Assembly (NCBI GenBank): GCA_025937835.1
Contig: JAICQO010000051.1
Coordinates: 1 to 45,737, forward strand
Reading direction: 5' to 3'
Source of the DNA: Polyangiaceae bacterium
GTDB taxonomy: Bacteria; Myxococcota_A; Polyangia; Polyangiales; Polyangiaceae
DNA length: 45,737 nucleotides
Made by a program: the position numbers and the translations under genes
Shown here: piece by piece, positions 3,125 to 21,571 of the stretch
Numbering within the stretch: the first letter of the stretch is position 1
Layout: each line of letters starts with the position of its first letter
Notes under the pieces: generated by a model
The model's input: the letters and a program-made list of their open reading frames with translations, nothing else
Database searches by the model: none
What the model was told of the DNA's origin: nothing

Positions 3125-3367
3125 ATGGTCGAAGACATTCGCTCGATTCTGAAGGAGCACGGAAAGCTATCGGTCGACATCGCCGGCCTGTCGGACGACG
3201 CCGATCTGTATCAAGCCGGCCTCACTTCACACGCCAGCGTGAACGTGATGCTCGCGCTCGAGGGCAAGTTCGACATCGAGTTTCCGGATCGAATGTTGAA
3301 GCGCAACGTCTTCGAGAGCGTCTCTGCCATCCGCGCCGCGATCGAGGAGCTCACGGGGGGAGCATGA
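3125..3367 (+). CDS. Acyl/aminoacyl carrier protein
   Basis: This 80-residue acidic protein has the four-helix carrier-protein pattern with a GLTSHASVNVML motif; Ser35 is the expected 4'-phosphopantetheine attachment site. The Met at 3125 was chosen over an upstream ATG at 3071 because a GGGAG ribosome-binding site precedes it and the upstream residues do not look like a carrier protein. It is the first gene of a tight operon with an amino acid:[carrier protein] ligase at 4615, so its likely cargo is an aminoacyl thioester and not a fatty acid. No PKS, NRPS or FAS gene is nearby. Confidence 0.88.
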   Translation: MVEDIRSILKEHGKLSVDIAGLSDDADLYQAGLTSHASVNVMLALEGKFDIEFPDRMLKRNVFESVSAIRAAIEELTGGA

Positions 3368-3453
3368 ACGCCGAACCGAGGATCGCCGGTGGCCCGGCAA
3401 CGCCGGGTCGAAGCGGAAAGCCCCTGTCCGAAACGATTGGAGGGTCGCCTTGA
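3364..3453 (+). CDS. Possible 29-residue microprotein between carrier and flavoprotein genes
   Basis: A short frame starts at ATG 3364, overlapping the carrier-protein stop (ATGA), and ends at TGA 3451-3453, overlapping the TTG start of the next gene (TTGA). A GGGGGAG sequence sits at good distance before the ATG. The product is Gly/Pro-rich (begins MNAEPRIAGG, ends ETIGGSP) and matches nothing I know. It may be a real small protein or only a coupling frame that carries ribosomes to the next start. Stop/start overlap at both ends is the only support. Confidence 0.35.
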   Translation: MNAEPRIAGGPATPGRSGKPLSETIGGSP

Positions 3454-4622
3454 GCAAAGCCAATGAATCGCCCCACGTCGCCACGGCCATGCGCATCGCG
3501 CGTGAGGTCGCGGGACCGCAAGCCGCGAGCGTGGACCGCGACGCCCGCTTCCCGCGCGAGGCGCTCGACGCCCTGAAGGAAGCGCGTCTCCTGTCCGCGT
3601 TCGTGCCCAAGGCCATGGGCGGGCTCGGCCTCGGGATGATCGAGCTGTCGCAGATGTGTGAAGCGCTCGCGCAACACTGTGCCTCGACCGGCATGGTGTT
3701 CGCGATGCATCAGATCCAGGTCGCGTGCCTGGTGCGCCACGCGAACGGCGTGGGCTTCTTCGAGCGCTATCTGAAGGAGCTCGCGGCAAAGCAATACCTG
3801 ATCGCCTCGGTCACGTCCGAGGTCGGCATCGGCGGCGAGATGCGCACCAGCATCTGCGCCGTCGAAAAGAGCGGCGATCGCTTCAAGCTCGACAAGGACG
3901 CCTCGACCATTTCCTACGGCGAGCACGCCGACGACCTGCTCGTGACCGCGCGCGCTGCACCGGATGCGACCCCGAACGACCAGGCCCTGGTGCTGGTGAG
4001 CAAGCCGGACTACTCGCTCGAACGCACTGGCGCCTGGGACACGCTCGGCATGCGCGGCACGTGCAGCCCGCCGTTCAAGATGAGGTCGACCGGCTCGGCG
4101 GAGCGGATCCTGCCCGCGCCGTTCGCCGACATCGCGAGCCAGACCATGGTCCCGTTCTCGCACATCCTCTGGGCCTCGTGCTGGCTCGGGATCTCGACGG
4201 CGGCCGTCTCCAAGGCGCGCGCGTTCGTGCGCAACCAGGCGCGGTCGAAGCCCGGGCAGACGCCGCCCAGCGCCATGCGCCTGGCCGAGGTCGCGACCCA
4301 GCTGCAGATGATGCGCGCCAACGTGCACGACGTGGCGAGCGAGTGCGAGTATCTGATGAATCACCCCGAGTCGAGCATCGACGTCCTGTCGTCGGTGGCA
4401 TTCGCGGTGAAGATGAACAACCTCAAGGTCTCCACCTCCGAGGCGGCGTTCCAGATCGCGCATCGCTGCCTCGGCATCTGCGGGATCATGGGTTACAAGA
4501 ACGACTCCAAGTTCTCGATCGGTATCCACATGCGCGACTCGATGTCGGCCGCGCTGATGGTGAGCAACGATCGGATCCTCTCGACCAACGCGGCGATGCT
4601 GCTGGTGCTCAAGGATGACTGA
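3450..4622 (+). CDS. Acyl-CoA dehydrogenase-like flavoprotein
   Basis: The 390-residue product has the acyl-CoA dehydrogenase fold order: helical N-terminal domain (residues 1-120, with FVPKAMGGLGLG), middle beta domain (about 120-235, with GMRGTCSPPF) and C-terminal four-helix domain containing AAFQIAHRCLGICGIMGYKNDSKF. The start is TTG at 3450, preceded at 7 bases by GGAGG. Family members oxidise acyl thioesters with FAD; carrier-bound substrates are known, as with prolyl-carrier dehydrogenases. Given its place between the carrier and its ligase, I infer it acts on the carrier-bound aminoacyl group, by desaturation or N-oxidation. It overlaps the ligase gene by 8 bases. Confidence 0.85.
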   Translation: MSKANESPHVATAMRIAREVAGPQAASVDRDARFPREALDALKEARLLSAFVPKAMGGLGLGMIELSQMCEALAQHCASTGMVFAMHQIQVACLVRHANGVGFFERYLKELAAKQYLIASVTSEVGIGGEMRTSICAVEKSGDRFKLDKDASTISYGEHADDLLVTARAAPDATPNDQALVLVSKPDYSLERTGAWDTLGMRGTCSPPFKMRSTGSAERILPAPFADIASQTMVPFSHILWASCWLGISTAAVSKARAFVRNQARSKPGQTPPSAMRLAEVATQLQMMRANVHDVASECEYLMNHPESSIDVLSSVAFAVKMNNLKVSTSEAAFQIAHRCLGICGIMGYKNDSKFSIGIHMRDSMSAALMVSNDRILSTNAAMLLVLKDD

Positions 4623-5529
4623 CGTCGAATACTCGTCCGAGTCGCTGTACGACGAGCTGGTCCGCCACAAGCTGATCCTGCCGGTGTCGGAGCCGGGGGC
4701 GTTCGGGCGCGGCGCCGTGTTCGAGGACGTGCTCGAGCGCTTCGGGGACCTGGTCACGCGCATCTCCAAGAACGACGGCGCGGAGCGCATGCAGTTCCCG
4801 CCGATCCTCGACCGCAAGACCTTCGAGAAGAGCGAGTTTTTGGACTCGTTCCCGCACCTGGCGGGCACGGTCTTCTCCTTCAAGGGCACGGAGGCAGAGG
4901 CCAAGGAGCTGCAGGCCAAGGTCAAGGCAGGCGAGAACTGGGAAGACACGCAGAGCATGACCGGCGTGGCGCTCGCGCCCGCCGCTTGTTACCCGGTCTA
5001 CCCTGCGTGCGCCGGCACGGTGCCCGACGAGGGGCGGCTCGTGTACATGCAAAACTGGGTGTTCCGGCACGAGCCGTCGCCGGAGCCGACCCGCATGCAG
5101 TCGTTCCGCTGCCGGGAGTTCATCCGGATCGGTAAGCCCGAGGCCGTGTTCGAGTGGCGCAACGCCTGGCACAAGCGCGGGCTCGAGCTCTTGCTGTCGC
5201 TCGGCCTCCCGGCAACGTCGGACGTGGCCGCCGATCCGTTCTTCGGGCGCGGCGGGCGCATGCTGGCCGCCAACCAGAAGGACCAGAAGCTGAAATTCGA
5301 GGTGCTGGTCCCGGTGATTTCGAAGGAGAACCCGACCGCGGTCTGCTCCTTCAACTACCACCAGGACCACTTCGGGAAAATCTTCGGCATCTACACGCCG
5401 GACGGCGAGCTCGCGCACACCGCGTGCCTCGGCTTCGGGATGGAGCGCGTGGTGATGGCGCTGTTCAAGACCCACGGCTTCGTGCCGGCAGAGTGGCCGA
5501 AGTACGTGCGCGATCTGCTCTGGCCATGA
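4615..5529 (+). CDS. Amino acid:[carrier protein] ligase (class II aaRS-like)
   Basis: This 304-residue protein resembles the catalytic core of atypical seryl-tRNA synthetase without a tRNA-binding arm. Motif 2 is at residues 160-172 (RMQSFRCREFIRIG region) and motif 3 at 271-284 (CLGFGMERVVMALF). Cys125 (AACYPVYPAC), Glu168 (CREF) and Cys271 match the zinc-ligand set of the Bradyrhizobium aa:CP ligases, with spacings of 43 and 103, close to the known proteins as I remember them. Those enzymes make an aminoacyl-adenylate and transfer Gly or Ala to a carrier's phosphopantetheine, not to tRNA. The carrier gene is two genes upstream. Which amino acid is used cannot be read from the sequence. Confidence 0.9.
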   Translation: MTDVEYSSESLYDELVRHKLILPVSEPGAFGRGAVFEDVLERFGDLVTRISKNDGAERMQFPPILDRKTFEKSEFLDSFPHLAGTVFSFKGTEAEAKELQAKVKAGENWEDTQSMTGVALAPAACYPVYPACAGTVPDEGRLVYMQNWVFRHEPSPEPTRMQSFRCREFIRIGKPEAVFEWRNAWHKRGLELLLSLGLPATSDVAADPFFGRGGRMLAANQKDQKLKFEVLVPVISKENPTAVCSFNYHQDHFGKIFGIYTPDGELAHTACLGFGMERVVMALFKTHGFVPAEWPKYVRDLLWP

Positions 5530-6497
5530 GTCGGGTCTCGGTCTTCGGCCTCGAGCCTGCGGCGTACACCCGCCATGCGCTGCACGGCGAGGGCAACCAG
5601 TGGGTCGAGAAGAACTGTTACATCGACGTGTGGATCGAGGCGCTGCACGCGGCAGGCCTCGAACCGTTGGCGCTGATGCCGTTCACACTGGCCAGCGACT
5701 TCGACGGCGACCAGTGGACGTTCTACAAGCCGCCGCACGGCGAGATCCAGGAGCTCTACGGGGTCTCGGTTCAGGAGCTCAACGTCTACAAGCCGATCCT
5801 CGAGCACTCGCTGTATCACGCAGCGCGCGGGCGGCTCGTGTTCACGGAAGCCGATGCGTACTTCATGCCCGACACCCAGGGTACGGACTACCACGCGCAC
5901 CACACCAAGAGCACGATCGCGATCGAGAGCATCGACGTCGAGCGCCGGGAGCTCCGTTACTTCCACAACGCCGGGTACTATCAGCTCTCGGGTGACGACT
6001 TCGTGAAGCTGTTTCGGCTCGAGGCCGAGCCGGATCCGACGTTTTTGCCCTTGTTCGCCGAGCTCGCCAAGTTCGACCGGGTCGAGCGGCTCGAGCGAGC
6101 CGAGCTCGCGGCGCGCTCGGAACGATTGCTTTCGACCTGGTTCGCACGAAGGCCCGCGCAAAACCCGCTCGAGCGCCATGGCGAGCAGTTCCCGCGCGAC
6201 ATCGAGGAGCTGCGAGCGAAGGGCATCGACGCCTATCACGCTTACGCCTTCGCCTCGATCCGGCAGTGCGGGTCGAATTTCGAGCTGCTGGCCTCTTACC
6301 TGCGCTGGCTCGGCGGTCCGTACGAGGCGCCGGCCGCGCACTTCGACGCGATTTCGCTCGGCTCGAAGGCGATGATTCTGAAGGGCGCGCGCGCCGTCAA
6401 CTCGAAGAAGCCGTTCGACTTTTCGGAGACCTTCCGCGAGCTCGCCGGGTCGTGGGAGCAGGGCATCGCGTCGCTCGGCGAGCTTCTGCGAGCGTAG
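5526..6497 (+). CDS. DUF1839 family protein
   Basis: The start is the ATG at 5526, overlapping the ligase stop (ATGA), giving 323 residues. I recognise the DUF1839 pattern, including EKNCYIDVWIEALHAAGLEP (Cys31), FDGDQWTFYKPP, and DTQGTDYHAHHTKSTIAIE (His123, His125, His126). The Cys plus downstream His/Asp layout recalls papain-like acyltransferases such as BtrH, which moves an acyl group from a carrier protein. That comparison is my inference; the family has no function that I know. It lies inside the aminoacyl-carrier operon, so transfer of the aminoacyl group to an acceptor is the most attractive role. Confidence 0.8.
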   Translation: MSRVSVFGLEPAAYTRHALHGEGNQWVEKNCYIDVWIEALHAAGLEPLALMPFTLASDFDGDQWTFYKPPHGEIQELYGVSVQELNVYKPILEHSLYHAARGRLVFTEADAYFMPDTQGTDYHAHHTKSTIAIESIDVERRELRYFHNAGYYQLSGDDFVKLFRLEAEPDPTFLPLFAELAKFDRVERLERAELAARSERLLSTWFARRPAQNPLERHGEQFPRDIEELRAKGIDAYHAYAFASIRQCGSNFELLASYLRWLGGPYEAPAAHFDAISLGSKAMILKGARAVNSKKPFDFSETFRELAGSWEQGIASLGELLRA

Positions 6498-6506
6498 CGT
6501 CGGGCG

Positions 6507-9026
6507 ATGGCCAAGGTCCGCGCCGCGTCCAACCAGAGCGTCGAGGCTCTGAGCTCGGGTTGGGAGCTGTGCGAGCTCGAGCCGCAGGTCGCGCCGGCCA
6601 CGCCCGAAGAGCTCGAGGCGCTTTCACCGAGGTTCTTGCCGGCGGCGGTTCCAGGCACGGTCGCCGGCGCGCTGTCCGATGCAGGGCTCTGGGACTTCGA
6701 GCGGCTGCGGGACCTCGACGAGCCGGAGTTCTGGTTCCGAACGCGCTTCGCGAGCACCCCCGCCAGAGCTGGAGAGTCGCTCTGGCTGTGCCTGGACGGG
6801 CTCGCCACGCTCGCCGAGGTGTTCCTGAACGGGACCAAGATCCTGAGCTCCGACAACATGTTTCATGCGCACGAGCTCGACGTGACGGCGCTCGTGGGAG
6901 AGGAGAACCGGCTGTACCTGCGGTTCTCGTCGCTGAAGGCATCGCTCGCGAAGCGCCGGCCGCGGCCGCGTTACCGCACGCGGCTCGTGGAGCAGGCGCA
7001 GCTACGCTGGTTCCGGACCAGCTTGCTCGGACGGATCCCGGCGTTCACTCCCCGGGTGGTTGCGGTCGGCCCGTACCGCGGGATCCGGCTCGAGCGCAGG
7101 CGCGGGGCGTTTCTCGAGAGGGCGTCGCTGCGGGCGGGTCTCGAGCAGGGCAAGCCGATCGTGCGCGCCGGGTTCGACGTCTCTGGCAGCGTCAGGAGCG
7201 CACGGCTCGCGGTCGGCGACGCGAGCACGCCCTTGACCCGCAGCCCGGAGGGGCGCTTCCACGGCGTGCTCTCGGTGCCGGGCGCCGAGCCGTGGTGGCC
7301 GCACACGCACGGTAGGAGCCCGCTGTATCGTGCGCGCGTGCTGCTCGAGACCGAGCACGGGACGATCGACGTCGATTTCGGCGCGGTCGGCTTTCGCTCG
7401 ATCGAGGCGCTCGACGACGACCAGCGCTTCGCCTTGAAGGTCAATGGCGTCGAGCTGTTCTGCCGGGGCGCCTGCTGGACCAACGACGACATCGTAACAC
7501 TTGGGAGTGACAGTGCGCCGAGGCGTGCCCTCGAGCTCGCGCGCCGCGCCGGGATGAACGTGCTGCGCGTCGGCGGCACCATGTGTTACGAATCCGGCGC
7601 GTTCTACGACGCCTGCGACGCGGCGGGGATCCTGGTCTGGCAGGATTACATGTTCGCCAACTTCGACTATCCGCACGACGACGCGGAGTTCGTGGCGAGC
7701 GTGCGGCGAGAGGCCGAGCAGTTCTTGTCGCGCACCGAGACCAACGCCTGCATCGGGCTCCTGTGCGGCAACAGCGAGGTCGAACAGCAAGCGGCGATGC
7801 TCGGTCTGCCGGCGGAGCTCGGCAAGCAGCCGCTGTTCGAGGACGTGCTGCGAGAAGTCAGCCGCGAGCGCCGCGCTGACGTGCCGTACTTGCCGTCTAC
7901 CCCCAGCGGCGGGGCGCTGCCGTTTCAGGTCGACTCGCGCGTTTCGCACTATTACGGCGTCGGTGCCTACCTGAGGCCGCTGGAGGACGCGCGGCGGGCC
8001 CGGGTGCTGTTCGCGAGCGAGTGCCTCGCGTTCGCGAACATCCCGAGCGACGCCACGCTCGAGCGGGTCTTGCCCAGCGGCCAGGCTCCCTTCCACGATC
8101 CACACTGGAAGGCTCGCGTGCCGCGCGACGGCGGCGCCGGCTGGGACTTCGACGACGTGCGCGATCACTACACCCAACTGCTGTTCGGTGTGGACGTCGT
8201 CGCCCAGCGCTCGAGCGATCCCACTCGCGCGCTCGCGCTGGGTCGCGTGACGAGCGGCGAGGTGATGGCAACCACGCTCGCGGAGTGGCGCCGTCGAGGC
8301 TCGACCTGTCGCGGTGCGCTGATCTGGTTCTTCAAGGATCTGTGGCCGGGCGCGGGCTGGGGGATCGTCGATGCGCTCGGTGAGCCGAAAGCCGCCTACT
8401 ACTTCGTGCGCCGCGCCATGCAGCCGCTCGCTCTGTTCCTGTCCGACGAGGGGCTGAATGGGCTCTATTTGCAGCTCGTCAACGACACGCCACGCGATCG
8501 CACGGTCGCTCTCGAATTTTCGCTGCTACGCGGGGGAAAGACGCAGGTTGCGGACGGCAAGCTCGCGGGTGTCTTGCTCCCGGGGCAGAGCGCGATCGAG
8601 ATCCCCGCGGCACGCTTGCTCGAGCGCTTTCTCGACACGACGTACGCGTACCGCTTCGGACCGCCGAGCCACGATCTGGCCGTGGCCCGCATGACCGATT
8701 CGGCGAGCGGCGAAGAGCTCGGGAGCTGGTCGTATTTCCCACAGCGCCTGCCGTCCGGGTACGACGACGAGCTCGAGCTCCGCGCTGTCGCCAGCGAGCT
8801 CGAAGCGGGCGTCCACTCGCTCTCGCTCACGGCCAACCGCGCTGCTCACTGGGTGTCGCTCGAGCTGCCGGGCTTCGAGCCGGAGGACTCGTATTTTCAC
8901 CTATACCCGGGCGTGGAACGGCGCGTGCTCGTTCGAGGTCGCGCGGGCGTTCCGCTCAAGGGAGTGGTTCAGCCGCTAAACTCCCGCGCGCCCGTGCGCG
9001 TCCAGGCTTCAAGCCAGGGCTCGTAA
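6507..9026 (+). CDS. Glycoside hydrolase family 2, beta-mannosidase-like
   Basis: The 839-residue protein follows the GH2 beta-mannosidase order: N-terminal sugar-binding beta-sandwich (about 15-180), immunoglobulin-like domain (about 190-300), TIM barrel (about 310-600) and C-terminal beta domains. The expected acid/base is Glu424 (CGNSEVEQ) and the nucleophile Glu505 (LFASECLAF); both are present. There is no signal peptide, so it acts in the cytoplasm. It starts 9 bases after the DUF1839 gene and is the last gene of that operon. A cytoplasmic glycosidase here suggests that a mannoside-type sugar is trimmed from, or serves as acceptor for, the carrier-derived product. Its 3' end overlaps the convergent esterase gene by 18 bases. 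Confidence 0.87.
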   Translation: MAKVRAASNQSVEALSSGWELCELEPQVAPATPEELEALSPRFLPAAVPGTVAGALSDAGLWDFERLRDLDEPEFWFRTRFASTPARAGESLWLCLDGLATLAEVFLNGTKILSSDNMFHAHELDVTALVGEENRLYLRFSSLKASLAKRRPRPRYRTRLVEQAQLRWFRTSLLGRIPAFTPRVVAVGPYRGIRLERRRGAFLERASLRAGLEQGKPIVRAGFDVSGSVRSARLAVGDASTPLTRSPEGRFHGVLSVPGAEPWWPHTHGRSPLYRARVLLETEHGTIDVDFGAVGFRSIEALDDDQRFALKVNGVELFCRGACWTNDDIVTLGSDSAPRRALELARRAGMNVLRVGGTMCYESGAFYDACDAAGILVWQDYMFANFDYPHDDAEFVASVRREAEQFLSRTETNACIGLLCGNSEVEQQAAMLGLPAELGKQPLFEDVLREVSRERRADVPYLPSTPSGGALPFQVDSRVSHYYGVGAYLRPLEDARRARVLFASECLAFANIPSDATLERVLPSGQAPFHDPHWKARVPRDGGAGWDFDDVRDHYTQLLFGVDVVAQRSSDPTRALALGRVTSGEVMATTLAEWRRRGSTCRGALIWFFKDLWPGAGWGIVDALGEPKAAYYFVRRAMQPLALFLSDEGLNGLYLQLVNDTPRDRTVALEFSLLRGGKTQVADGKLAGVLLPGQSAIEIPAARLLERFLDTTYAYRFGPPSHDLAVARMTDSASGEELGSWSYFPQRLPSGYDDELELRAVASELEAGVHSLSLTANRAAHWVSLELPGFEPEDSYFHLYPGVERRVLVRGRAGVPLKGVVQPLNSRAPVRVQASSQGS

Positions 9027-9689
9027 GAACTTCTTCAGTCCGCGAACGGCCTGCACCGGGGTGCCGTGCCCGCCGTCGAAAGCCAAGAAATCTACCAGCC
9101 AACCCGCGCTCGTCAGGTCGTCCTTGAAGCGCTCGGTGGCCGAGAAAGACAGGTCCGGATCGGCGCGGCCGTGGCTGATGAAGGCGCGCTGGCCGCGACG
9201 TTTTTCGAGCAGCGGGTTCCATTTCCGCTCGGCGATGCGGCAGCCGGAGAGCATCACCAGCGCCGCGAGCTCTCGAGCGCTGTGCAACGCATAGTCGAAG
9301 GCCAGCATCGCGCCCTGCGAGAAGCCGCCGAGCACGAGCGGCGTTCGTCCCGAATCGGCGCGGATTGTTTCGAGGAATTCGCTCAGCGTCACGCGCGCCT
9401 CTTCGAGCCCCGTTGGTTCGAAGCTCGACAGATCCCTCGGTTGACCCGAGGCCAGGGCCAGAGCGCGCGACGCGCCGTCCGATGGCCACCACGTGTGCCC
9501 GCCGAGCTCATCGGCTCCCGCGCGATCGAGCGCTAGCGGAGCTTCGGGAAAGAAGAACTCTCCGTCTATTCCCATCGATTTTGCGAACGCCGAAAGGTCC
9601 TCCGCTCCGCCGGCAAAGCCGTGCAAAAGCACGATCTGCGGCCCGCCGTCACCCACCCGGTAGCGAACGATTTTTTGAATGGATCGCAT
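9009..9689 (-). CDS. Alpha/beta-hydrolase, phospholipase/carboxylesterase type
   Basis: The 226-residue product has an oxyanion loop LLHGFAGGAED, nucleophile elbow GGFSQG (Ser124), an acid near Asp177 in HGRADPDL and His208 in DGGHGT. This matches the small carboxylesterase/lysophospholipase family (EstB/YpfH type). There is no signal peptide, so it is cytosolic. The gene is antisense to, and overlaps the ends of, the upstream GH2 gene; its start lies about 40 bases from the divergent double-hydrolase gene, so the two probably share a short promoter region. The natural ester substrate is unknown. Confidence 0.85.
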   Translation of the reverse strand: MRSIQKIVRYRVGDGGPQIVLLHGFAGGAEDLSAFAKSMGIDGEFFFPEAPLALDRAGADELGGHTWWPSDGASRALALASGQPRDLSSFEPTGLEEARVTLSEFLETIRADSGRTPLVLGGFSQGAMLAFDYALHSARELAALVMLSGCRIAERKWNPLLEKRRGQRAFISHGRADPDLSFSATERFKDDLTSAGWLVDFLAFDGGHGTPVQAVRGLKKFLRALA

Positions 9690-9729
9690 TGACGGTGCAC
9701 CGCCTGTCGAGCATTACCATGGACGTCGA

Positions 9730-11868
9730 ATGTCTGAAGGCACGGGGACAATCTCACCAGCTGCCCCCGTGGATGTCGGCGCTGCGGACTCGTTTCTGGG
9801 CCTTGGCCGGGCGCGGCCGTTGTGGTTCGGTCCGACGGATCGCCCGCTGTTCGGCTGGTATCATCCGGCGCGCGGCGCGACGCCCCGCGCGGCGCTCGTC
9901 ATGTGCAGCCCGTTCGGGCACGAAGCGATGTCCGTGCATCGCGGCTACGTGCACCTCGCGAGGCGTTTCGCCGCTAGCGGCATCGCGGTGTTGCGTTTCG
10001 ACTACGATGGCACCGGAGACTCCGCCGGCGACGCGCACGATCCGGACCGAGTTCCGGCCTGGATACGTAGCATTCGCCTGGCACGCGAGCGGCTCTTGCG
10101 CTTGTGCGGCGCGGGCTCCACGTTCGTGTTCGGCCTGCGTCTCGGCGCGCTCTTGGCGCTGAGCGAGGCGGTCGACAACCCCGCGGACGGGTTGATCCTG
10201 TTCGCGCCGCCGGCCTCGGGTCGCGTCTGGGTGCGCGAGGTGCAGGCGCTGCAGATGCTCAAGCAATCCCAGCTCCCGTTCGCGCCCGCTACGCCAGAGC
10301 CCGCGGTCGTCGGCTTTCCGCTCGACCAGGCCACGCGCGAGGCGATCTCCGGGCTCAAGTACGACGGCCTGGTGCATCCACCCGCGCGCCACGTGCTGCT
10401 GATCGCTCGCGACGATCTGCCGAGTGGTGAAGCCAAGCTCGCTCCGCTCTTGACCGAGAGTGGTGCCGAGGTCGTGGTTTCGAAGGCGCCGGGCTACGCC
10501 GAGTTCGTGCCGGAAGATCCGGTCAAGTCGAGGCTGCCTCAGGCGGTCGCCGACGCGATCCTGTCCTTCATCGACGAGCTCCACCCGCCTGCGACCGGAA
10601 AACCCGCGTCGCTCCCACGCGAGGAGGCTCCCGCCTGGTCGAGCCCCACCCCGTACGGCCAGTTCTCGGGCCAAACGCCGGCTTCGGACGGGGAGCGCTT
10701 CTCCGGCCGCCCGCCGGTTCCCTACGAGGAGGAGCGCGAGAATTCTCCGCCCCCGTCCGGAGAGGAGGTTCCCTGGTCCAGCCCGCTGTCGCCGCCGCCT
10801 GAGGAGGAGACGCCCACGGTCTCGCTGCGTCCGCCGCCGATGCGCGAAGAGACGCCGACCTGGTCGTTGCGCACGGCGCAGTTACGGGGGGACGCGCCGG
10901 GGCCGCTGAGTCTACGCCGCGGCGAGCCGGCGCAGCTCAACAGCCGTATCGCGATCCTGGGCGGCGGCATCCGCGAGGAGGCCGTGCACTTCCACGGTCT
11001 GTTCGGCATCTTGAGCGAGCCCGTGTCGGCGGAGCTGCCGGAGCCTACCGCCGTGCTGCTCTTCAACATCGGGGCCAACCACCACGTGGGCTCGAACCGC
11101 CTCTACGTGCAGATGGCGCGGGCCTGGTCGGCGCAGGGGTTCAGCGTGCTGCGCCTGGATTTCTCCGGGATCGGCGACAGCCCGATCGCTGCAGGCAAGC
11201 GCGAGAACGAGGTGTACTCGAAGCACATGTTCCACGACGCGCGGGTGGCGATCGACTTCATGATCGCCCGCGGTGCCGAGCACGTGGTGCTGCTCGGGTT
11301 GTGCTCGGGCGCCTACGTCGCCTACCACAGCGCAATCCTCGATTCGCGCGTGTCGGACGTCGTGATGATCAACCTGCTCACGTTCCACTGGACGGAGGGC
11401 GATTCACTCGAGATCCGCACGCGCAGTACCCACAAATCGACGACCTTTTACAAGCGCGCGGCGCTGAAGCTCGACACCTGGAAGCGGCTGGCGCGGGGAG
11501 ACGTCAACGTGCGAGGCATCGCCGGGCAGCTCGCGCTACGCACCAAGAAGCGGCTGTACCGCGAGGCGAAGTCGGTGGCCGCGCGCTTCACCGGCACCCT
11601 CGTCGAGGCCACCGACGTGGAGCGCGGCTTCCGGTTGCTGGACGAGCGAGGCACGGGCGTGCTCGCGCTCTACGGCTCGGACGACGGCGGAATCGACGTG
11701 ATCGAGGGGCACCTCGGCTCCGGGGCGGAGGCGATGGCCGGCAGCCGCTCGTTCCGCATGCAGGTGCTGGAAGGCCCCGATCACACCTTCACCCCGCTCT
11801 GGACGCAGCGTCAGCTCGTTCAGCTGATCGGCGAGTACCTGTTGGAGCGTTACGCGGGCGAGCCCTGA
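9730..11868 (+). CDS. Fused double alpha/beta-hydrolase with proline-rich linker
   Basis: This 712-residue protein contains two alpha/beta-hydrolase domains (about 20-280 and 415-710) joined by a Pro/Glu-rich, probably disordered linker (about 285-395). In the first domain the nucleophile elbow reads GLRLGA, with Arg137 where Ser is expected. In the second it reads GLCSGA, with Cys525, and a GPDHTF histidine follows near the end. These elbows recall the paired hydrolases of exosortase A/EPS loci, where they are separate genes, but no exosortase or EPS gene is in the window. I chose ATG 9730 over 9679 because the longer form would overlap the divergent esterase start. A thioester or acyl-transfer role is possible. 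Confidence 0.75.
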   Translation: MSEGTGTISPAAPVDVGAADSFLGLGRARPLWFGPTDRPLFGWYHPARGATPRAALVMCSPFGHEAMSVHRGYVHLARRFAASGIAVLRFDYDGTGDSAGDAHDPDRVPAWIRSIRLARERLLRLCGAGSTFVFGLRLGALLALSEAVDNPADGLILFAPPASGRVWVREVQALQMLKQSQLPFAPATPEPAVVGFPLDQATREAISGLKYDGLVHPPARHVLLIARDDLPSGEAKLAPLLTESGAEVVVSKAPGYAEFVPEDPVKSRLPQAVADAILSFIDELHPPATGKPASLPREEAPAWSSPTPYGQFSGQTPASDGERFSGRPPVPYEEERENSPPPSGEEVPWSSPLSPPPEEETPTVSLRPPPMREETPTWSLRTAQLRGDAPGPLSLRRGEPAQLNSRIAILGGGIREEAVHFHGLFGILSEPVSAELPEPTAVLLFNIGANHHVGSNRLYVQMARAWSAQGFSVLRLDFSGIGDSPIAAGKRENEVYSKHMFHDARVAIDFMIARGAEHVVLLGLCSGAYVAYHSAILDSRVSDVVMINLLTFHWTEGDSLEIRTRSTHKSTTFYKRAALKLDTWKRLARGDVNVRGIAGQLALRTKKRLYREAKSVAARFTGTLVEATDVERGFRLLDERGTGVLALYGSDDGGIDVIEGHLGSGAEAMAGSRSFRMQVLEGPDHTFTPLWTQRQLVQLIGEYLLERYAGEP

Positions 11869-13241
11869 CGGCGACGCAGCAGCAGCAGGGCGAGCGCGAG
11901 CAAGGGGAACAGGGACGAAGCGTCGAAGCGCGTCGGGGAGAACGCGCAGCCGCGGGATCCGGATGACGTCGGAGAAGGAGCAGGAGCAGGAGCCGGACTT
12001 CCGCCTGAGCTCGGCCCCGGGAACGCGGGCGGGGCCGAGGGCGAGCCGCCGGAGCTCGAGTTGGGTGGAGAAGGCGGGGCCGACGCGGTGCCGCCGGTCG
12101 AGCTCGGGTTCGGCGGCGTGGTCGGGGGTGGGGGCTCCGGGGAGCCGCTGCTCATGCAGGCACCGTCGACGCACTGCGCGGAGGGGCCGCACGAGTCTTC
12201 GTCGACGTCGCCGTCGCAATCGTCGTCGAGGAGATTGCAGGTTTCCGGGAGGGGTGTGCCGGGTGTGCAGCTCGATTCGTTGCAGGTGACGCTGTCGCGC
12301 AGGCACCAGCCCTCGCCGCACTGGGGGCGCACTCGCTCGTCTGCGCGACCGTCGCAGTCGTCGTCCACGAGGTTGCAGACTTCGACGGCGTTCGGGTGGC
12401 GCGTCGGATCGTCGTCGTCGCAGTCGTTGCGATCGGCTGCGTAGCCCTCGAGCGGAACGCAGCCGATCACGGATTCACCGGAGAAAGCGGCGTAGCCGTC
12501 CCCGTCGGCGTCGGGCCAGAGCTCGACCGGATCGGCGTCTTCGTCGATGACCTGGTTGCAGTTATCGTCCTTCTCGTTGCAGCGCTCGGGCGCGCCGGGA
12601 TGGATGTAATCGAAGGTGTCGTCGCAGTCGTCGCTCGTGAGGGAGTAGCCCGCGGGCGCTTCGTCCGCGCAGCCCTCGGTCGTCGGGTAGTCGAGCGAGC
12701 CGAAGCCGTCGCGATCCGCGTCGAAGAAGTAGGTGCGCGCCTCGCAGCCGAACGCCCGAGCGTAACGGGTGAATCCGGGAGTGTCGCCGGACGAGCGACG
12801 GTCGTTGTTGGCGGCTACCGCGTAGGCTTCGAAATGCACGGCTCCCGGCTCGGACGGCGCTTGCCAGCCGAAGCGAAAGCTCACGCTGCCGTTGGTCCCG
12901 GCCTTGGGCGCCGAGTGCAAGAAGCCGTCGCTCGTGAGCTTCAGCCCTTCACCCTCGATCGTCCGCAGCTGCCCGATGTCCGGCGTGGGCACGAACAGCC
13001 CCGCGGTCGAGAGTCCGGCATGCTCGATCGTCACTCGAAAGGTCACGACCGCGCCGGGCTCGAAGCGCTCGGGCTCGGGCGTGAACGTGATCTTGGTGTT
13101 CGGCGCTGCGGCGTGGCAGCCCTCGCAGCCGTTGGCGGCGACCCCGTTGGAACGCGCCCAGCCGATTGCGGGGGCCAACGTCAAGAAGATTGCGGGGAGG
13201 AGCGAGCTCTTCGCTCGCGCGCGGAAGGTCCGTGCGGGCAT
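11850..13241 (-). CDS. Secreted MopE/Reeler-like Cys-rich protein with MYXO-CTERM-like tail
   Basis: Starting at ATG 13241 the product is 463 residues with a signal peptide (SSLLPAIFLTLAPAIGWARS). A GCEGCH motif follows at once; then a beta-sandwich domain of Reeler/choice-of-anchor type (about 40-175). Next come four or five MopE-type metal-binding repeats (DDCDDTFDYIHPGAPERCN-like units ending in DDDCDG), a Ser/Gly/Pro linker (about 365-430) and a tail with GCAFSP, a hydrophobic helix and RRRQG. The tail resembles MYXO-CTERM sorting signals, so the protein is probably anchored at the cell surface. The repeats suggest Ca or Cu binding. The open frame extends upstream to 13943, but that part is low-complexity antisense to the GH53 linker. 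Confidence 0.82.
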   Translation of the reverse strand: MPARTFRARAKSSLLPAIFLTLAPAIGWARSNGVAANGCEGCHAAAPNTKITFTPEPERFEPGAVVTFRVTIEHAGLSTAGLFVPTPDIGQLRTIEGEGLKLTSDGFLHSAPKAGTNGSVSFRFGWQAPSEPGAVHFEAYAVAANNDRRSSGDTPGFTRYARAFGCEARTYFFDADRDGFGSLDYPTTEGCADEAPAGYSLTSDDCDDTFDYIHPGAPERCNEKDDNCNQVIDEDADPVELWPDADGDGYAAFSGESVIGCVPLEGYAADRNDCDDDDPTRHPNAVEVCNLVDDDCDGRADERVRPQCGEGWCLRDSVTCNESSCTPGTPLPETCNLLDDDCDGDVDEDSCGPSAQCVDGACMSSGSPEPPPPTTPPNPSSTGGTASAPPSPPNSSSGGSPSAPPAFPGPSSGGSPAPAPAPSPTSSGSRGCAFSPTRFDASSLFPLLALALLLLRRRQGSPA

Positions 13242-13470
13242 GCGAGCTTCGAGTGTCGCACGATCGACGGAAGCGTCAGGGCTCGAGCCGGCAGGTCTCG
13301 CAATTCGACTGCGACGCGCTCGTGAGGGCCGGCCGCTCCAGCAGCACGTTTCCAGCGCCGGCGCCCAGGTGAGCCGATCTGGCCGTGGTTTTTCGGCCGT
13401 TTCGAATAGTTCCGAGCTTGGATCGGGTCGTGTAGGTGCATGATTCGAGAAGGCGAGGCTGCTCCGTCGC

Positions 13471-14928
13471 ATGACCCGTTCACCATTCAACCAAACCGCG
13501 CGCTCGTGGGTCGCGGCGACCTTGTTCGCTGCGCTGATCGCCAATTGCTCGAGCCAGGAGAGCGGCTCCGAGCCGAACCGACCCAGCACTGGCGGGAGCA
13601 ACGGGAGCGGCGGTGCCGCGAGCACGGCGAACGGGGGCGCCCTCACGAGCAGCGGCGGAGCAACTCCGACTGGCGGAGCCAGCCTCTCCGGCGGAGCGTC
13701 AGTGACCGGCGGGAGCGCGGCGACCGGCGGCAGCCCCGCGAGCAGCGGTGGCGCGGCGAGCGAGACCGGCGGTTCGGCAGCCGTGGCGGGTGCGACAACG
13801 AGCGGTGGCGCGACAGCGAGCGGTGGCAAAGCTTCCGGCGGGAGTGCGGGCAGCGCCGGATCGGCCAGCGTTACCGGTGGCGCGACGAACGGCGGCAGCG
13901 GGGGAGGCGTGTTCGCCCCCGCCTTCATTCTCGGCGCCGACATCTCCAGCGTTCAGGAAGGAAAGGCCACCTTCAAGGACACGGACGGTCAAACCAAGAC
14001 CATCTTCGAGCTCCTGAAAAACCACGGCTTCAACTACATCCGCTTGAAGACCTTCGTCGATCCCGGCGCCCCCTACGGGTATTCCTCGAAAGAGAACGGC
14101 TGCAGCGGCTTCGACGAGCCCTTCGGCGACAAAGCGCACGTCGTCGCCTTCGGCAAGCAAGCCAAGGACGCGGGCATGGGGTTCTTGCTCGACTTCCACT
14201 ACAGCGACACCTGGGCGGACCCCGGCAACCAGATCATCCCCGACCCCTGGCGCGGGGCGTCGAACGTCGGCGAGCTCGCCGCGCTCGTGAAGTCCTACAC
14301 GAAAGACGTGATCGCGACCGCTGTCGCGGCCGGCGCGCGGCCCGACATGGTCCAGATCGGAAATGAAATCACGCCCGGCATGTTGATTCACGTGCCCGGC
14401 GCCAACACCGATTGCTGGGGGAACAACCCGGATCGCGCGCCCGTGGGCGGCGGGACCGGTAATTGGGACGACCTGGCCGCGCTGCTCAAGGCGGGCATCG
14501 AAGGCGTGCGCGAGGTCGACGCCGGCATCCAGATCATGCTCCACATCGAGAACACCGACGACCTGAACGGCGTGCGGCGCTGGGTCGACAGCGCGCTCGC
14601 GCGCGACGTCGATTTCGACGTGCTCGGCTTGTCTTGCTACGTCGCTTTCCAGGGTGAGCCCTCGGTCTGGAAGGCCACGTTCACCGATCTCGCCAGCCGC
14701 TACCCGGACTTGAAGTTCGCGATCGCCGAGTACAATCCGGAGCGCGAGCAGGCCAACCGCATCATGAAGGATCTGCCGAACGGCCGCGGCCTCGGCACCT
14801 TCTTCTGGGAGCCCACGCGCAGCGGCGAATGGGGCGATGCCCTGTTCAACTGGCAGGGCAACACGGGCACAGCCAGGCAGGCCGACTTTGCCGTCTACGA
14901 CGGGCTGCGCGAATACCTCGGGATCTGA
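13471..14928 (+). CDS. GH53 endo-beta-1,4-galactanase, probable lipoprotein
   Basis: The 485-residue protein has an N-terminal signal with LIANC (Cys26) as a likely lipobox, although Asn at -1 is atypical. A Gly/Ser/Thr/Ala-rich linker follows (about 30-145), then a GH53 TIM barrel (about 148-485: FILGADISSVQEG at its start, DFHYSDTWADPG). The acid/base is Glu299 (QIGNEIT) and the nucleophile Glu420 (AIAEYNPE). GH53 enzymes cut beta-1,4-galactan of type I arabinogalactan, fitting a saprophytic soil lifestyle. The gene stands alone between divergent and unrelated neighbours. Confidence 0.9.
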   Translation: MTRSPFNQTARSWVAATLFAALIANCSSQESGSEPNRPSTGGSNGSGGAASTANGGALTSSGGATPTGGASLSGGASVTGGSAATGGSPASSGGAASETGGSAAVAGATTSGGATASGGKASGGSAGSAGSASVTGGATNGGSGGGVFAPAFILGADISSVQEGKATFKDTDGQTKTIFELLKNHGFNYIRLKTFVDPGAPYGYSSKENGCSGFDEPFGDKAHVVAFGKQAKDAGMGFLLDFHYSDTWADPGNQIIPDPWRGASNVGELAALVKSYTKDVIATAVAAGARPDMVQIGNEITPGMLIHVPGANTDCWGNNPDRAPVGGGTGNWDDLAALLKAGIEGVREVDAGIQIMLHIENTDDLNGVRRWVDSALARDVDFDVLGLSCYVAFQGEPSVWKATFTDLASRYPDLKFAIAEYNPEREQANRIMKDLPNGRGLGTFFWEPTRSGEWGDALFNWQGNTGTARQADFAVYDGLREYLGI

Positions 14929-16493: not shown

Positions 16494-16599
16494 CGGCGGA
16501 ACGATAGACCGAGAAGCGCTCGAGAGCCGGATCGGGGAACGACTGTTCAGCCAACCTCCCATTTGGAGGAGGTCGGGAACGATCTTTGCGGGTGATCGC

Positions 16600-16628
16600 T
16601 TGCCTGGGCCCCGGTGCTTTGCTAATAG
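16600..16628 (+). promoter_or_regulatory. Candidate promoter for the rplV half of the operon
   Basis: TTGCCT at 16600-16605 and TAATAG at 16623-16628 are separated by 17 bases in an otherwise very GC-rich region, giving a plausible housekeeping promoter. It would produce a leader of about 125 bases before rplV. A separate promoter is needed here because the upstream Lon-domain gene points the other way. The -10 hexamer is poor. Confidence 0.4.
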
Positions 16629-16681
16629 GCCGGTCCCCTTCGCAGGCCGAGGTTTCCGCTGGGAACTTTCGGCTTTGCCAG

Positions 16682-16725
16682 CCGCCTCTCCGGGCGGATG
16701 ACGGGGCGCCGGCCTCCCGCGCCCC
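16682..16725 (+). promoter_or_regulatory. Two tandem hairpins in the rplV leader
   Basis: Two adjacent perfect inverted repeats occur between the candidate promoter and rplV: CCGCC (16682-16686) with GGCGG (16693-16697), and GGGGCGC (16703-16709) with GCGCCCC (16719-16725). No U-tract follows, so they are not simple terminators. They could form an RNA target for a ribosomal protein that regulates the operon, but in GC-rich DNA short repeats also arise by chance. Confidence 0.35.
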
Positions 16726-16759
16726 GGGGGGACGACGGGTCTCACGAGGAAACTGTCGC

Positions 16760-17101
16760 ATGATCGCTTCTGCAACTGCACGATTTCAAAGGATTAGTCC
16801 GCGCAAGGCCAGGATGATCGTCAACCTGGTGCGCGGCCGTGACGCCTCCGAAGCCCTGCAGCTTCTGGACTTCACGTTCAAGAGCGGCGCTCCCTTCGTC
16901 AAGAAGCTGATCGCGAGCGCCGTCGCCAACGCCAAGCAGAAGAAGCCCGGCGTCGACACCGACTCCTTGTTCATCAGCAAGGCTGCGGTCGACAAGGCGT
17001 CGAACGCGCATCTTCGCCGCTGGCGCCCGCGCGCTCAGGGGCGCGCTACGCAAATCACCAAGGGCGTGAGTCACATCCTGATCGAGCTCGATCAGCGCTA
17101 A
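16760..17101 (+). CDS. rplV: 50S ribosomal protein L22 (uL22)
   Basis: The 113-residue product shows L22 hallmarks: [20 protein letters not shown] near the N-terminus and the tunnel hairpin around [15 protein letters not shown]. The start is ATG 16760 with GAGGA upstream; the longer frame from 16586 is low-complexity leader. It is the first gene of the relocated part of the S10 operon and is separated from rpsS by 14 kb. rpsC follows after 20 bases. Confidence 0.97.
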
Positions 17102-17121
17102 CCCCAACACGGCTAAAGATA

Positions 17122-17814
<693 letters not shown>

Positions 17815-17817
17815 GCC

Positions 17818-18234
17818 ATGCTGTCACCCAAGCGCACCAAGTTCCGTAAGCAGCAGAAGGGCAAGAACCGCGGCATCGCCTGGAAGGGCTCCGACGTGTC
17901 CTTCGGCGACTTCGCGCTGCAGGCTACGGCCCGCAGCTTCATCACCTCGCGTCAGATCGAGGCCGGCCGTATGGCGATTCAGCGCCACGTGAAGCGCGCC
18001 GGCAAGCTCTGGATCCGCGTGTTCCCCGACAAGCCGATCACCAAGAAGCCGCTCGAGGTCCGCATGGGCAGCGGCAAGGGCTCCGTCGAAGGTTGGGTGG
18101 CCGTGGTCAAGCCCGGTCGCGTGCTGTTCGAGATCGCGGGCGTGCCCGAAGCCGAGGCGCGTCAGGCGTTCAAGCTCGCAGCCTCCAAGCTCCCGATCGA
18201 AACCCGATTTCTCACGCGAGGTTACGTCGAATGA
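17818..18234 (+). CDS. rplP: 50S ribosomal protein L16 (uL16)
   Basis: The 138-residue product starts [15 protein letters not shown] and contains [24 protein letters not shown] and [16 protein letters not shown], diagnostic of L16, a protein near the A-site tRNA and the factor-binding region. Its stop overlaps the rpmC start (ATGA at 18231-18234), so translation is coupled. Confidence 0.97.
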
Positions 18235-18443
18235 AGGCCAAAGACTTGCGTGAACGTTCGACCGAGGATCTTGCCACGCTCAAGGCCTCGATGATGAAGG
18301 ACCTGTTTTCCTACCGGATGAAGGTCTGGACCGATCAGCTCGAGGACACGAGCCTGATCCAGAAGACCAAGCGCGACGTCGCACGGATCGAGACGATCCT
18401 GCGCGGTCGAGAGCTCGAAGCGAGCCAGGGAGCCAAGTCGTGA
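18231..18443 (+). CDS. rpmC: 50S ribosomal protein L29 (uL29)
   Basis: The 70-residue helical protein has the L29 pattern: [29 protein letters not shown] followed by a second helix ending [17 protein letters not shown]. It sits beside the tunnel exit. ATG 18231 overlaps the rplP stop, and its own stop overlaps the GTG start of rpsQ. Confidence 0.95.
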
Positions 18444-18724
18444 GCAGCGCCGAAGAACACGCCCCGTACCGCCGCCGCCTGATCGGGCGCGTGCGGAGCG
18501 ACAAGATGGACAAGACGGTCGTGGTCGAGGTCGTCCGCTTCAAGCGCGACCCGATGTACAAAAAGTACGTGCGAGTGCGGAAGCGCTACCACGCTCACGA
18601 CGAGAAGAACGAATACAAGACCGGCGATCGCGTGGAGATCGTCGAGCACCGCCCGATCTCGCGCAACAAGCGCTGGGCCGTGGCACGTCTCCTCGAACGC
18701 CCCGCGTCCGAGCTCTCTTCCTGA
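18440..18724 (+). CDS. rpsQ: 30S ribosomal protein S17 (uS17)
   Basis: The 94-residue product shows the S17 OB-fold signature (GRVRSDKMDKTVVVEVVR; KYHAHDE-like YHAHDEKNEYKTGDRVEIVEHRPISRNKRW). The start is GTG 18440 within the rpmC stop (GTGA). N- and C-terminal tails are slightly longer than in E. coli. Confidence 0.96.
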   Translation: MSSAEEHAPYRRRLIGRVRSDKMDKTVVVEVVRFKRDPMYKKYVRVRKRYHAHDEKNEYKTGDRVEIVEHRPISRNKRWAVARLLERPASELSS

Positions 18725-18742
18725 TTCCGACGGAGCAATGCA

Positions 18743-19111
18743 ATGATTCAGATGCAATCCGTCCTGGAAGTGGCCGACAACTCCGGCGCCAAGCGCGTGC
18801 AGTGCATCAAGGTGCTCGGTGGCTCCCGCCGCCGTTACGCCGCGCTGGGCGACGTGATCGTCGTCGCCGTCAAGGAAGCTCTGCCGGGCAGCAAGGTCAA
18901 GAAGGGCGACACGGCCAAGGCCGTCGTGGTCCGCACCAAGCGTGAGTACCGCCGCAACGACGGCAGCTACATCCGCTTCGACGACAACAGCGCCGTCCTG
19001 ATCAACGCGCAGTCCGAGCCCGTCGGCACGCGTATCTTCGGCCCCGTCGCCCGCGAGCTTCGCGCCAAGAAGTTCATGAAGATCATCTCGCTCGCCCCGG
19101 AGGTGCTGTGA
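18743..19111 (+). CDS. rplN: 50S ribosomal protein L14 (uL14)
   Basis: The 122-residue product begins [18 protein letters not shown] and contains the L14 signature around [31 protein letters not shown]14 contributes to an intersubunit bridge. It is the first gene of the classical spc block; rplX overlaps its stop (TGATG). Confidence 0.97.
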
Positions 19112-19434
19112 TGAACCGCATCCGTACCGGTGACGAGGTCGTCGTGATCCGCGGCGAGGACAAGGGCAAGCGCGGCAAGGTCTCGCGCGTGCTGAAGGAT
19201 CGCGGTCTCGCGGTCGTGGAAGGCGTGCGTCGCGTCAAGCGCCACGTGAAGCCGACCCAGCAGCGCCCGGGCGGCATCCTCGAGGTCGAGGCGCCGATCG
19301 CGCTGTCCAAGCTGATGTTGATCGATCCCCAGAGCAACAAGCCGACGCGGGTGAAGGTCAAGATCGAAGGCGAGAAGAAGTCGCGGCTCGCCAAGAGCGG
19401 CGCCGTGCTCTCCGCCGTTGCGGAGAAAGGTTGA
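19111..19434 (+). CDS. rplX: 50S ribosomal protein L24 (uL24)
   Basis: The 107-residue product has the KOW motif ([23 protein letters not shown]) and the [20 protein letters not shown] region. ATG 19111 is preferred over GTG 19108 because GGAGG at 19099-19103 is 7 bases upstream. L24 initiates 50S assembly at the tunnel exit. Confidence 0.96.
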
Positions 19435-19439
19435 GCGAG

Positions 19440-20000: not shown

Positions 20001-20003
20001 GCC

Positions 20004-20189
20004 ATGGCGCGTGCTTCTCAGTGGGCGAAGTTGAATCGCCCCCCCAAGTTCAAGACCCGTCACGTGAGCCGTTGCCGCGCCTGCGGCAGGGCGCGTGCCT
20101 TCTACCGTGACTTCGGGCTGTGCCGCGTGTGCCTGCGCTTGATGGCGCTGCGCGGTGAGCTCCCGGGTGTGACCAAAGCGAGCTGGTGA
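20004..20189 (+). CDS. rpsN: 30S ribosomal protein S14, zinc-binding type (uS14)
   Basis: The 61-residue product is the short, zinc-containing S14 form, with two CxxC pairs (CRACG at residues 24-28 and CRVC about 40-43) and the terminal GVTKASW. The zinc form, rather than the long Cys-free form, suggests no adaptation to zinc limitation at this locus. Confidence 0.97.
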
Positions 20190-20194
20190 GAGCC

Positions 20195-21183: not shown

Positions 21184-21192
21184 GAGGTCGTC

Positions 21193-21555: not shown

Positions 21556-21571
21556 AATTCAAGGTCAAGCC

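Follow-up and report, generated by a model that had tools for sequence, protein, structure and literature searches.

A five-gene carrier-protein cassette of a Polyangiaceae bacterium combines an amino acid ligase with a DUF1839 protein of predicted CcbD-like fold

Background

Amino acid:[carrier protein] (aa:CP) ligases are seryl-tRNA synthetase (SerRS)-like enzymes, and those of Bradyrhizobium have glycine or alanine as substrates. They were reportedly described by Mocibob et al. in 2010 together with their gene neighbourhoods in Agrobacterium (Atu2573/Atu2574) and Bradyrhizobium (bll0957/bll0958). Here we analyze a cassette built around such a ligase at positions 3125-9026 of a stretch of 45,737 nucleotides of Polyangiaceae bacterium DNA (GCA_025937835.1, contig JAICQO010000051.1), the whole of which is referred to as the window. 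Its five genes encode a carrier protein, an acyl-CoA dehydrogenase (ACAD)-like flavoprotein, an aa:CP ligase, a DUF1839 protein and a glycosidase of family GH2.

According to the note added in proofs by Iyer et al. 2010, which deals with the ligase (PMC2922099), its gene is surrounded by those of an acyl carrier protein (ACP), a redox enzyme, an uncharacterized open reading frame (Atu2574) and a glycosidase. The same note predicts that Atu2574 forms an amide between the amino acid and an amino sugar of the cell surface and that the redox enzyme modifies the aminoacyl group, probably by monooxygenation (PMC2922099). From its neighbourhood, Atu2574 appears to be a DUF1839 protein. In a review table (PMC9437257) the substrates of aa:CP ligases are alanine, glycine and also serine, and in a table of proteins altered in a Bradyrhizobium phaR mutant (PMC10888616) both bll0957 and bll0958 (acyl-CoA dehydrogenase) are entered with a fold change of 3.0. 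The Agrobacterium/Bradyrhizobium neighbourhood has the same carrier, redox enzyme, SerRS-like ligase, open reading frame and glycosidase as the window; the window cassette differs in lying inside a ribosomal S10 region, in having a tandem alpha/beta hydrolase gene nearby and in lacking an adjoining phosphopantetheinyl transferase (PPTase) gene.

Parts of the cassette also resemble better described systems. In lincosamide synthetase (LmbC, LmbN-CP/CcbZ-CP, LmbD/CcbD) a cysteine-protease-like condensing enzyme couples an amino acid held on a carrier with an amino sugar, and it is the fold of CcbD that is predicted for the DUF1839 protein. The window, however, has an aminoacyl-tRNA synthetase (aaRS)-like ligase in place of an adenylation domain, and a flavoprotein and a GH2 enzyme in place of the lincosamide-specific proteins. 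BtrH of butirosin synthesis, a papain-like ACP:aminoglycoside acyltransferase in the relevant passages of PMC10318531, likewise carries out a carrier-to-aminoglycoside transfer. It belongs to a different family, PF14399, and its absence among the structure matches listed for DUF1839 is no evidence against kinship. CaeB1 and ColB1, as presented in the pertinent part of PMC8149447, are ACAD-fold enzymes oxidizing carrier-tethered cysteine, a role comparable to that proposed for the window flavoprotein; CaeB1 relies on Glu372, whereas the window family has Val or Ile at the matching column.

The locus is real, very conserved and of a type already in print since 2010, and the scheme of the initial annotation (load an amino acid, oxidize it, transfer it to a sugar-containing acceptor, then trim the sugar) is nearly the same as the prediction made in that year by Iyer et al. 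The present work adds to it the fold kinship of DUF1839, the lost glutamates of the flavoprotein, a split into donor and acceptor modules, a Cys-type hydrolase and genome counts. The CcbD/CtaG-type fold turns the old prediction into a defined, assayable reaction, accounts for the partnership of the genes as donor plus acceptor modules and offers a candidate small stand-alone amide synthase. It also suggests a possible route to the aminoacylated amino sugars of surface polysaccharides, whose transferases are, to our knowledge, poorly known. No description of the end product of the cassette was found in the literature.

Organization of the cassette

The five genes lie head to tail, and Pfam and NCBIfam profiles agree on their identity, so that the gene set of the initial annotation was confirmed at its coordinates:

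3125..3367, + strand: carrier protein of 80 amino acids (PF00550, 2.6e-6; NF005480, 111.6 bits against a cut-off of 72), with Ser35 in GLTSH
3450..4622, + strand: ACAD-fold flavoprotein with a TTG start (PF02771, PF00441), without both canonical catalytic glutamates
4615..5529, + strand: SerRS-like amino acid:[carrier protein] ligase (NF005479, 404 bits; curated cut-off 357), with Cys125/Glu168/Cys271
5526..6497, + strand: DUF1839 protein (PF08893, 8.5e-101), papain-like, a proposed carrier-dependent amide-forming transferase, with Cys31, Ser/Thr129 and His147
6507..9026, + strand: GH2 beta-mannosidase-like glycosidase (5n6u, E 3.3e-54), with presumed acid/base Glu424 and nucleophile Glu505

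The overlaps claimed between the flavoprotein and ligase genes (4615-4622) and between the ligase and DUF1839 genes (5526-5529) are present and measure 8 nt and 4 nt, respectively; the gaps are 82 nt between the carrier and flavoprotein genes and 9 nt between the DUF1839 and GH2 genes.

The DUF1839 protein

The product of the fourth gene scores 337.8 bits on PF08893 (cut-off 22.5), covering profile positions 2-311 of 313. Its AlphaFold2 model, made from 53 sequences, has a mean predicted local distance difference test score (pLDDT) of 96.5, and the best PDB matches of this model by Foldseek are AziU3/U2, CtaG and CcbD (E 1.6e-7 to 1.5e-4), followed by staphopain at E 0.02. With VIA-align the model matched CcbD with Z 18.9 (280 of 323 residues aligned, root-mean-square deviation 3.5), AziU3 with Z 18.2 and CtaG with Z 17.7; other folds among the matches listed reached at most 7.5. 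In the highest-ranking CcbD structure the enzyme is bound to a carrier domain. The whole-length matches (Z 16.4-18.9) are carrier-dependent enzymes, and the best peptidase match has Z 7.2 over 156 residues. This kinship with CcbD, CtaG and AziU3, drawn from a model, is new here: no paper linking DUF1839 to CcbD was found, and PMC10318531, the one paper found to name DUF1839, is silent on CcbD in its passages on this family.

Cys31, His147 and Thr/Ser129 are each kept in 69/69 sequences, and an independent study, in its passages on this family (PMC10318531), treats it as papain-like, the triad being C(T/S)H. CcbD has a Cys-His-Glu triad, whereas DUF1839 has a Cys-(Thr/Ser)-His set composed of the invariant Cys31 and His147 and Thr/Ser129, without a known acid, in a comparison made without residue-level superposition; no sequence similarity between the two was found.

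The ligase and the carrier protein

By its score the ligase is a member of the amino acid--[acyl-carrier-protein] ligase family, and it matches the crystal structure of Bradyrhizobium Bll0957 (3mey) at E 6.6e-76. It is a catalytic core of 304 amino acids without a tRNA-binding domain, and a solved type-2 SerRS is matched only over residues 307-505 of the latter. The residues Cys125/Glu168/Cys271, which the initial annotation had regarded as the set of the Bradyrhizobium enzymes, do line up with positions 151/196/299 of the chain in the Bll0957 entries, by manual counting along the alignment, and are invariant in 88/88 aligned ligases. On the assumption of a 20-residue tag in these entries, the chain residues would be 131/176/279 of Bll0957, and we take this Cys/Glu/Cys set to be its zinc ligands. 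The phosphopantetheine attachment residue of the carrier, Ser35, is kept in 84/84 aligned carriers. An AcpS-like PPTase is encoded in 53/96 loci; none adjoins the window cassette, and the sole ACPS-family match of the genome lies on a different contig.

The flavoprotein

The initial annotation of the second product as ACAD-like holds for its fold and fails for the residues of a dehydrogenase. The AlphaFold2 model (pLDDT 91.0) has the ACAD fold, with Z 41.4 to a short-chain ACAD. At the column of Glu376 of medium-chain acyl-CoA dehydrogenase (MCAD), set by gapless anchoring of the MCAD sequence on the RD motif, it has V371 (V in 46 and I in 38 of 84 family members), and at the column of Glu254 of isovaleryl-CoA dehydrogenase (IVD), taken from HMMER alignments, it has S237 (S in 73 and A in 12 of 85), so neither canonical dehydrogenase glutamate is kept in the family. 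The invariant His238 (85/85) was considered as a substitute for the IVD glutamate and ruled out, since aligned ACADs have Arg in its column and S237 occupies that of the glutamate. A dehydrogenase of the prolyl-carrier type was rejected on account of the loss of both glutamates. Three residues past the V/I column, an Asp/Glu374 is found in 82/84 flavoproteins and could act as an unusual base.

Fold comparison cannot separate dehydrogenases from oxygenases as relatives of the modelled protein (TdsC Z 40.0, flavin monooxygenase 5z8t 39.9 and KijD3 38.3, against 41.4 for the short-chain ACAD; ColB1 reaches 40.2), and profile scores likewise leave them unseparated (butyryl-CoA dehydrogenase 91 bits, nitrososynthase-type DnmZ 83, KijD3 78). 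By analogy with CaeB1/ColB1 and cysteine, the substrate is presumably a carrier-bound group. Oxidation at the C-N bond or at N is favoured because both glutamates are lost and glycine, having no beta carbon, allows no alpha,beta-desaturation.

The glycosidase

Pfam recognizes only the N-terminal domain (PF22666) of the GH2 protein; by phmmer its residues 72-821 match beta-mannosidase 5n6u, and beta-mannosidases are its closest solved relatives. Within the region aligned to 5n6u, Glu424 is found in 77/79 members (Asp in 2) and Glu505 in 79/79, and we take them to be the acid/base and the nucleophile, respectively. No signal peptide was seen, and by a crude test a strongly hydrophobic N-terminal stretch occurs in 0/80 relatives. 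Such sequence features make the protein most likely a working cytoplasmic retaining glycosidase, which could prepare the acceptor as well as trim the product.

Distribution of the cassette and its two modules

Co-occurrence of the families, on which the initial annotation had made its proposal depend, was examined in two samples: 282 genomes from the same phylum, which we take to be Myxococcota, and 200 genomes from the order of an Undibacterium locus (L086). Of the first sample, 13 genomes encode DUF1839, 14 a ligase scoring above the cut-off (19 at E <= 0.001) and 12 both, adjacent in 12/12. In the second sample DUF1839 occurs in 5 genomes, the ligase in 6 (8 at E <= 0.001) and both in 5, adjacent in 5/5; one of these five genomes has a second DUF1839 gene, near a contig end, with no ligase in view. 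Over the pooled 482 genomes the families do co-occur, both being present in 17 of the 18 genomes with DUF1839 and of the 20 with a ligase over the cut-off, and adjacent in 17/17 (Fisher p 2e-27, uncorrected for kinship).

A scan of genome contigs gave at least 568 DUF1839 relatives among at least 590 candidates, the best 80 of which were kept. Within the fetched stretches of these 80 loci the ligase was found in 75, the flavoprotein in 74, GH2 in 72, the carrier in 70 and all five in 64. Ten of the 16 incomplete loci are cut by a contig end (L058, L063, L068, L083, L085, L087, L088, L095, L119, L132). The others (L057, L066, L071, L091, L107, L134) have no contig end close by: for L057 the ligase and flavoprotein genes adjoin each other on a separate contig, for L071 and L107 the flavoprotein gene was found at another place of the genome, L066 has GH2 on another contig, and the ligase is absent from the genomes of L091 and L134. 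Pairwise identities of the five proteins correlate over 66 loci (Spearman 0.53-0.84), as expected of a unit inherited together; common ancestry alone yields the same.

DUF1839 loci with most or all of the genes are found in Myxococcota, Burkholderiales, gammaproteobacteria, Gemmatimonadota, Acidobacteriota, Planctomycetota, Chloroflexota and one Brevibacillus, and the cassette is also carried by alphaproteobacterial plasmids; its product is therefore likely to be common in soil and water. The gene order is the same in annotated plasmid records of Rhizobium, Shinella, Azospirillum, Mycetohabitans and Caballeronia.

There are exceptions to the five-gene set. Across the two samples, three genomes (G011, G258, G445) have a ligase over the cut-off and no DUF1839. 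In G011 a carrier-flavoprotein-ligase trio stands beside a divergent non-ribosomal peptide synthetase (NRPS) with condensation, adenylation, carrier and thioesterase domains (C-A-PCP-TE); in G445 two AMP-binding enzymes and a pyridoxal phosphate-dependent decarboxylase flank the ligase and flavoprotein; and in G258 the ligase, the carrier and a tandem hydrolase like that near the window cassette share one contig of 3.5 kb, so this hydrolase is not strictly tied to DUF1839. GH2 follows DUF1839 and not the ligase, being found in 4/4 DUF1839 genomes tested and 0/3 ligase-only genomes, and the flavoprotein family is present in 7/7 DUF1839 genomes tested, even where not adjacent. From these exceptions, small in number, we therefore distinguish a donor module (carrier, ligase, flavoprotein) and an acceptor module (DUF1839, GH2).

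Some loci of the survey have features of their own. A bacterial homolog of pentameric ligand-gated ion channels (Neur_chan domains) is encoded near the ligase/NRPS locus of G011 (L048:6776-7750). In Ktedonospora (L150:8263-9194, also L124) the coding sequence of the ligase is divided between two frames that overlap, with the other four genes present, and a Cupriavidus metallidurans replicon (L141:11704-20254) has two DUF1839 genes within about 6 kb, one of them in a full cassette on the reverse strand.

A proposed pathway and its alternatives

From the gene content, the conservation, the predicted folds, the catalytic residues kept or lost and the module swaps, we infer the amino acid, the type of oxidation, the acceptor, the order of steps and the roles of GH2 and the hydrolase as follows. 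The ligase would adenylate a small amino acid and charge the phosphopantetheine arm of the 80-residue carrier, and the ACAD-fold flavoprotein would oxidize the aminoacyl group while it is bound to the carrier, probably at the C-N bond or N and not by C-C desaturation. The reaction of DUF1839 would be of the CcbD-like ping-pong type: Cys31 would accept the acyl group of the carrier, and with the help of His147 this group would then go to an amine, most likely that of an amino sugar. GH2 would act on that glycoside, either to prepare the acceptor or to trim the product. In loci that have the Cys-type alpha/beta hydrolase, this enzyme may release an acyl intermediate or transfer it. We consider it fairly probable that the cassette encodes such a two-module, free-standing cytoplasmic pathway, in which a donor module that charges and oxidizes serves a CcbD-like amide transferase whose acceptor is the amine of a sugar. 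The loading, oxidation and transfer to a sugar-containing acceptor foreseen by the initial annotation gain support from the predicted fold of DUF1839 and from the ligase gene adjoining it in 17/18 DUF1839 genomes; trimming as the subsequent step is unsupported.

A more specific version can be put forward only tentatively, and we would sooner expect it to need revision: the products may form a widespread, so far undescribed class of amino-sugar conjugates, made by an aaRS-type machinery akin to lincosamide synthetase. Carrier-bound glycine or alanine would be oxidized at the C-N bond or N, for instance to an imino/glyoxylyl or N-hydroxyglycyl group, and DUF1839 would attach it through the amine to an amino sugar in beta linkage (mannosamine, say) whose glycosidic bond GH2 recognizes, the donor module being lent to NRPS partners as well.

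Several observations weigh against the two-module pathway. AziU3, no less close in fold, is tied to aziridine formation, and therefore members of this fold are not all amide makers. A common fold, here a modelled one, proves no function; in place of the His and Glu of the CcbD triad, DUF1839 has Thr/Ser and His. The link to CcbD rests on fold because the sequence profile of DUF1839 finds no kinship to CcbD or other solved structures (best E 1.1). Nor is the amino acid fixed, the review table (PMC9437257) having Ala, Gly and Ser. Three genomes with the other four genes (G070, G291 and G292, the last a 2.2 Mb assembly), chosen because their locus had no ligase, were found to have none of this family elsewhere either; loading by a different enzyme, or of a different substrate, must therefore be possible there. 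As to the acceptor, no glycosyltransferase or amino-sugar gene is constant across cassettes, and no polysaccharide-making protein was found among the window proteins scanned, which include only two frames in 24-45 kb. The Caballeronia cassette has unrelated neighbours and no glycosyltransferase annotated within 12 kb, and the counts of polysaccharide genes near cassettes, given below, lack a background rate.

The alternatives are not mutually exclusive. It is possible, if on balance doubtful, that the product is a small soluble metabolite (a natural product or a mycothiol-like compound) and no surface glycan. The Caballeronia neighbours and the ribosomal protein genes around the window cassette would suit such a product, the enzymes look cytoplasmic, and an ABC-transporter ATPase-like frame is found in 7/96 loci, all from a few related groups (cluster 12). 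Against it stands the company of the cassette elsewhere: among 107 hand-picked conserved neighbour frames there are five WecG/TagA glycosyltransferases, five group-1 glycosyltransferases, five acyltransferase-3 proteins, four sugar transferases (PF02397) and four GDP-mannose dehydratases, counted in overlapping sets with 25 of 136 families listed and without a background control. Polysaccharide families, with hydrolases, acyl- and methyltransferases, are the commonest of the 25. In Shinella, O-antigen-ligase and GumC-family genes, which belong to surface polysaccharides, lie 6-9 kb upstream of the cassette. Of the other annotated records, that of Rhizobium has GT4 genes and an alpha/beta hydrolase near the cassette, and those of Azospirillum and Mycetohabitans have an alpha/beta hydrolase. 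In Rhizobium sp. NLR16a (L136:6552-9378) epmA and a lysine-2,3-aminomutase-like gene directly precede the cassette, with efp divergent beside them, and this group is another system of an aaRS paralogue adjoining it.

We regard it as rather unlikely that the flavoprotein is a true alpha,beta-dehydrogenase with an unusual base, forming a dehydroalanyl-carrier as CaeB1/ColB1 act on cysteine. The ACAD fold, ColB1 among the tied structures, the profile scores, which leave butyryl-CoA dehydrogenase unseparated from DnmZ and KijD3, and the acidic residue at position 374 could accommodate it. CaeB1, in the part of PMC8149447 on its catalysis, needs Glu372, however, and the window family has V/I and S/A at both glutamate positions; from glycine, without a beta carbon, the reaction could not proceed.

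A non-sugar acceptor amine (that of a polyamine, a peptide or another amino acid held on a carrier), joined in the manner of CtaG and freed of a protecting sugar by GH2 at a late stage, is unlikely. CtaG, proposed in the pertinent passages of PMC6772006 as a peptidyl transferase between carriers, is nearly as close to DUF1839 as CcbD in the fold comparison, and the Caballeronia cassette and the NRPS beside one donor trio point in the same direction. GH2, however, is tied to DUF1839, was not found in the three tested genomes without it and shows no signal peptide; moreover, polysaccharide genes recur nearby, and the five-gene loci have no second carrier of this family, the only carrier family sought. 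Still less probable, to the point of being remote, is a DUF1839 thioesterase or peptidase that releases a free oxidized amino acid or processes cell-wall glycans: a papain-like fold with Cys and His would allow it and acyl-CoA-dependent glycan processing at the cell wall was suggested in 2023 (in the DUF1839 passages of PMC10318531), whereas the whole-length structural matches are carrier-dependent enzymes, peptidases match only in part, and the family of the partner ligase spends ATP to form the thioester.

Genes next to the window cassette

The neighbourhood does not end at 9026, where the initial annotation had closed the locus, since the two genes that follow GH2 recur in related loci. They are listed with the only microprotein candidate:

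9009..9689, - strand: single-domain carboxylesterase-like alpha/beta hydrolase (PF02230, 2.1e-11), accessory neighbour
9679..11868, + strand: two alpha/beta-hydrolase domains in tandem, akin to exosortase-A-associated hydrolases 2 and 1, with Cys542
3364..3453, + strand: frame of 29 codons, probably no gene (less than 90 nt at this place in 29/40 loci)

The microprotein considered in the initial annotation was rejected: the frame between the carrier and flavoprotein genes has no sign of conservation, as judged by spacer length in 40 loci that include the window and without comparing frames in the 10 relatives whose spacer is longer. The distance from the carrier stop to the first conserved flavoprotein position is 128 nt in the window and 62 nt in its closest relative, L056.

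The tandem hydrolase gene starts 652 nt after GH2 on the same strand, a common transcript with the cassette being no more than possible across this gap. Its cluster occurs in 61/96 loci, including the window, often adjoining GH2 or the carrier. The halves score 107.9 bits on TIGR03101 (cut-off 202.75) and 106.9 bits on TIGR03100 (cut-off 168.45), the families of exosortase-A-associated hydrolases 2 and 1, from which the window protein differs in being a fusion and in falling below both curated cut-offs. A link to the exosortase sorting system was rejected on these scores, no exosortase having been found in this genome (assembly 95.8% complete; related loci were not searched for it). The first half has a GxRxG motif (Arg154 in 55/58) and, because of it, no nucleophile; the second has GxCSG, with Cys542 in 58/58. 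The carboxylesterase-like gene has a tblastn match in 17/100 loci (L036-L135), in L056 at the same place and strand, and its blastp cluster comprises 20/96 loci, including the window.

The cassette is inserted, with about 4.7 kb of further genes, within a ribosomal-protein S10 region (window 287-24215). None of S10, L4, L23, L2, S19, L22 and S3 was found by tblastn in the 100 loci L036-L135, which are stretches of limited length. After the cassette, at 11850-14928, lie genes for a protein with MopE-type metal-binding motifs (minus strand) and for a GH53-like protein with a low-complexity, Ser/Gly-rich N-terminus, neither of which has a match in the same 100 loci. Upstream, ending at 2691, are S10 and S19 (by Pfam) with L4, L23 and L2, named by sequence, between them, and the ribosomal genes resume at 16586-24215 with L22, S3, L16, L14, L5, S8, L18 and L15 (by Pfam) and SecY.

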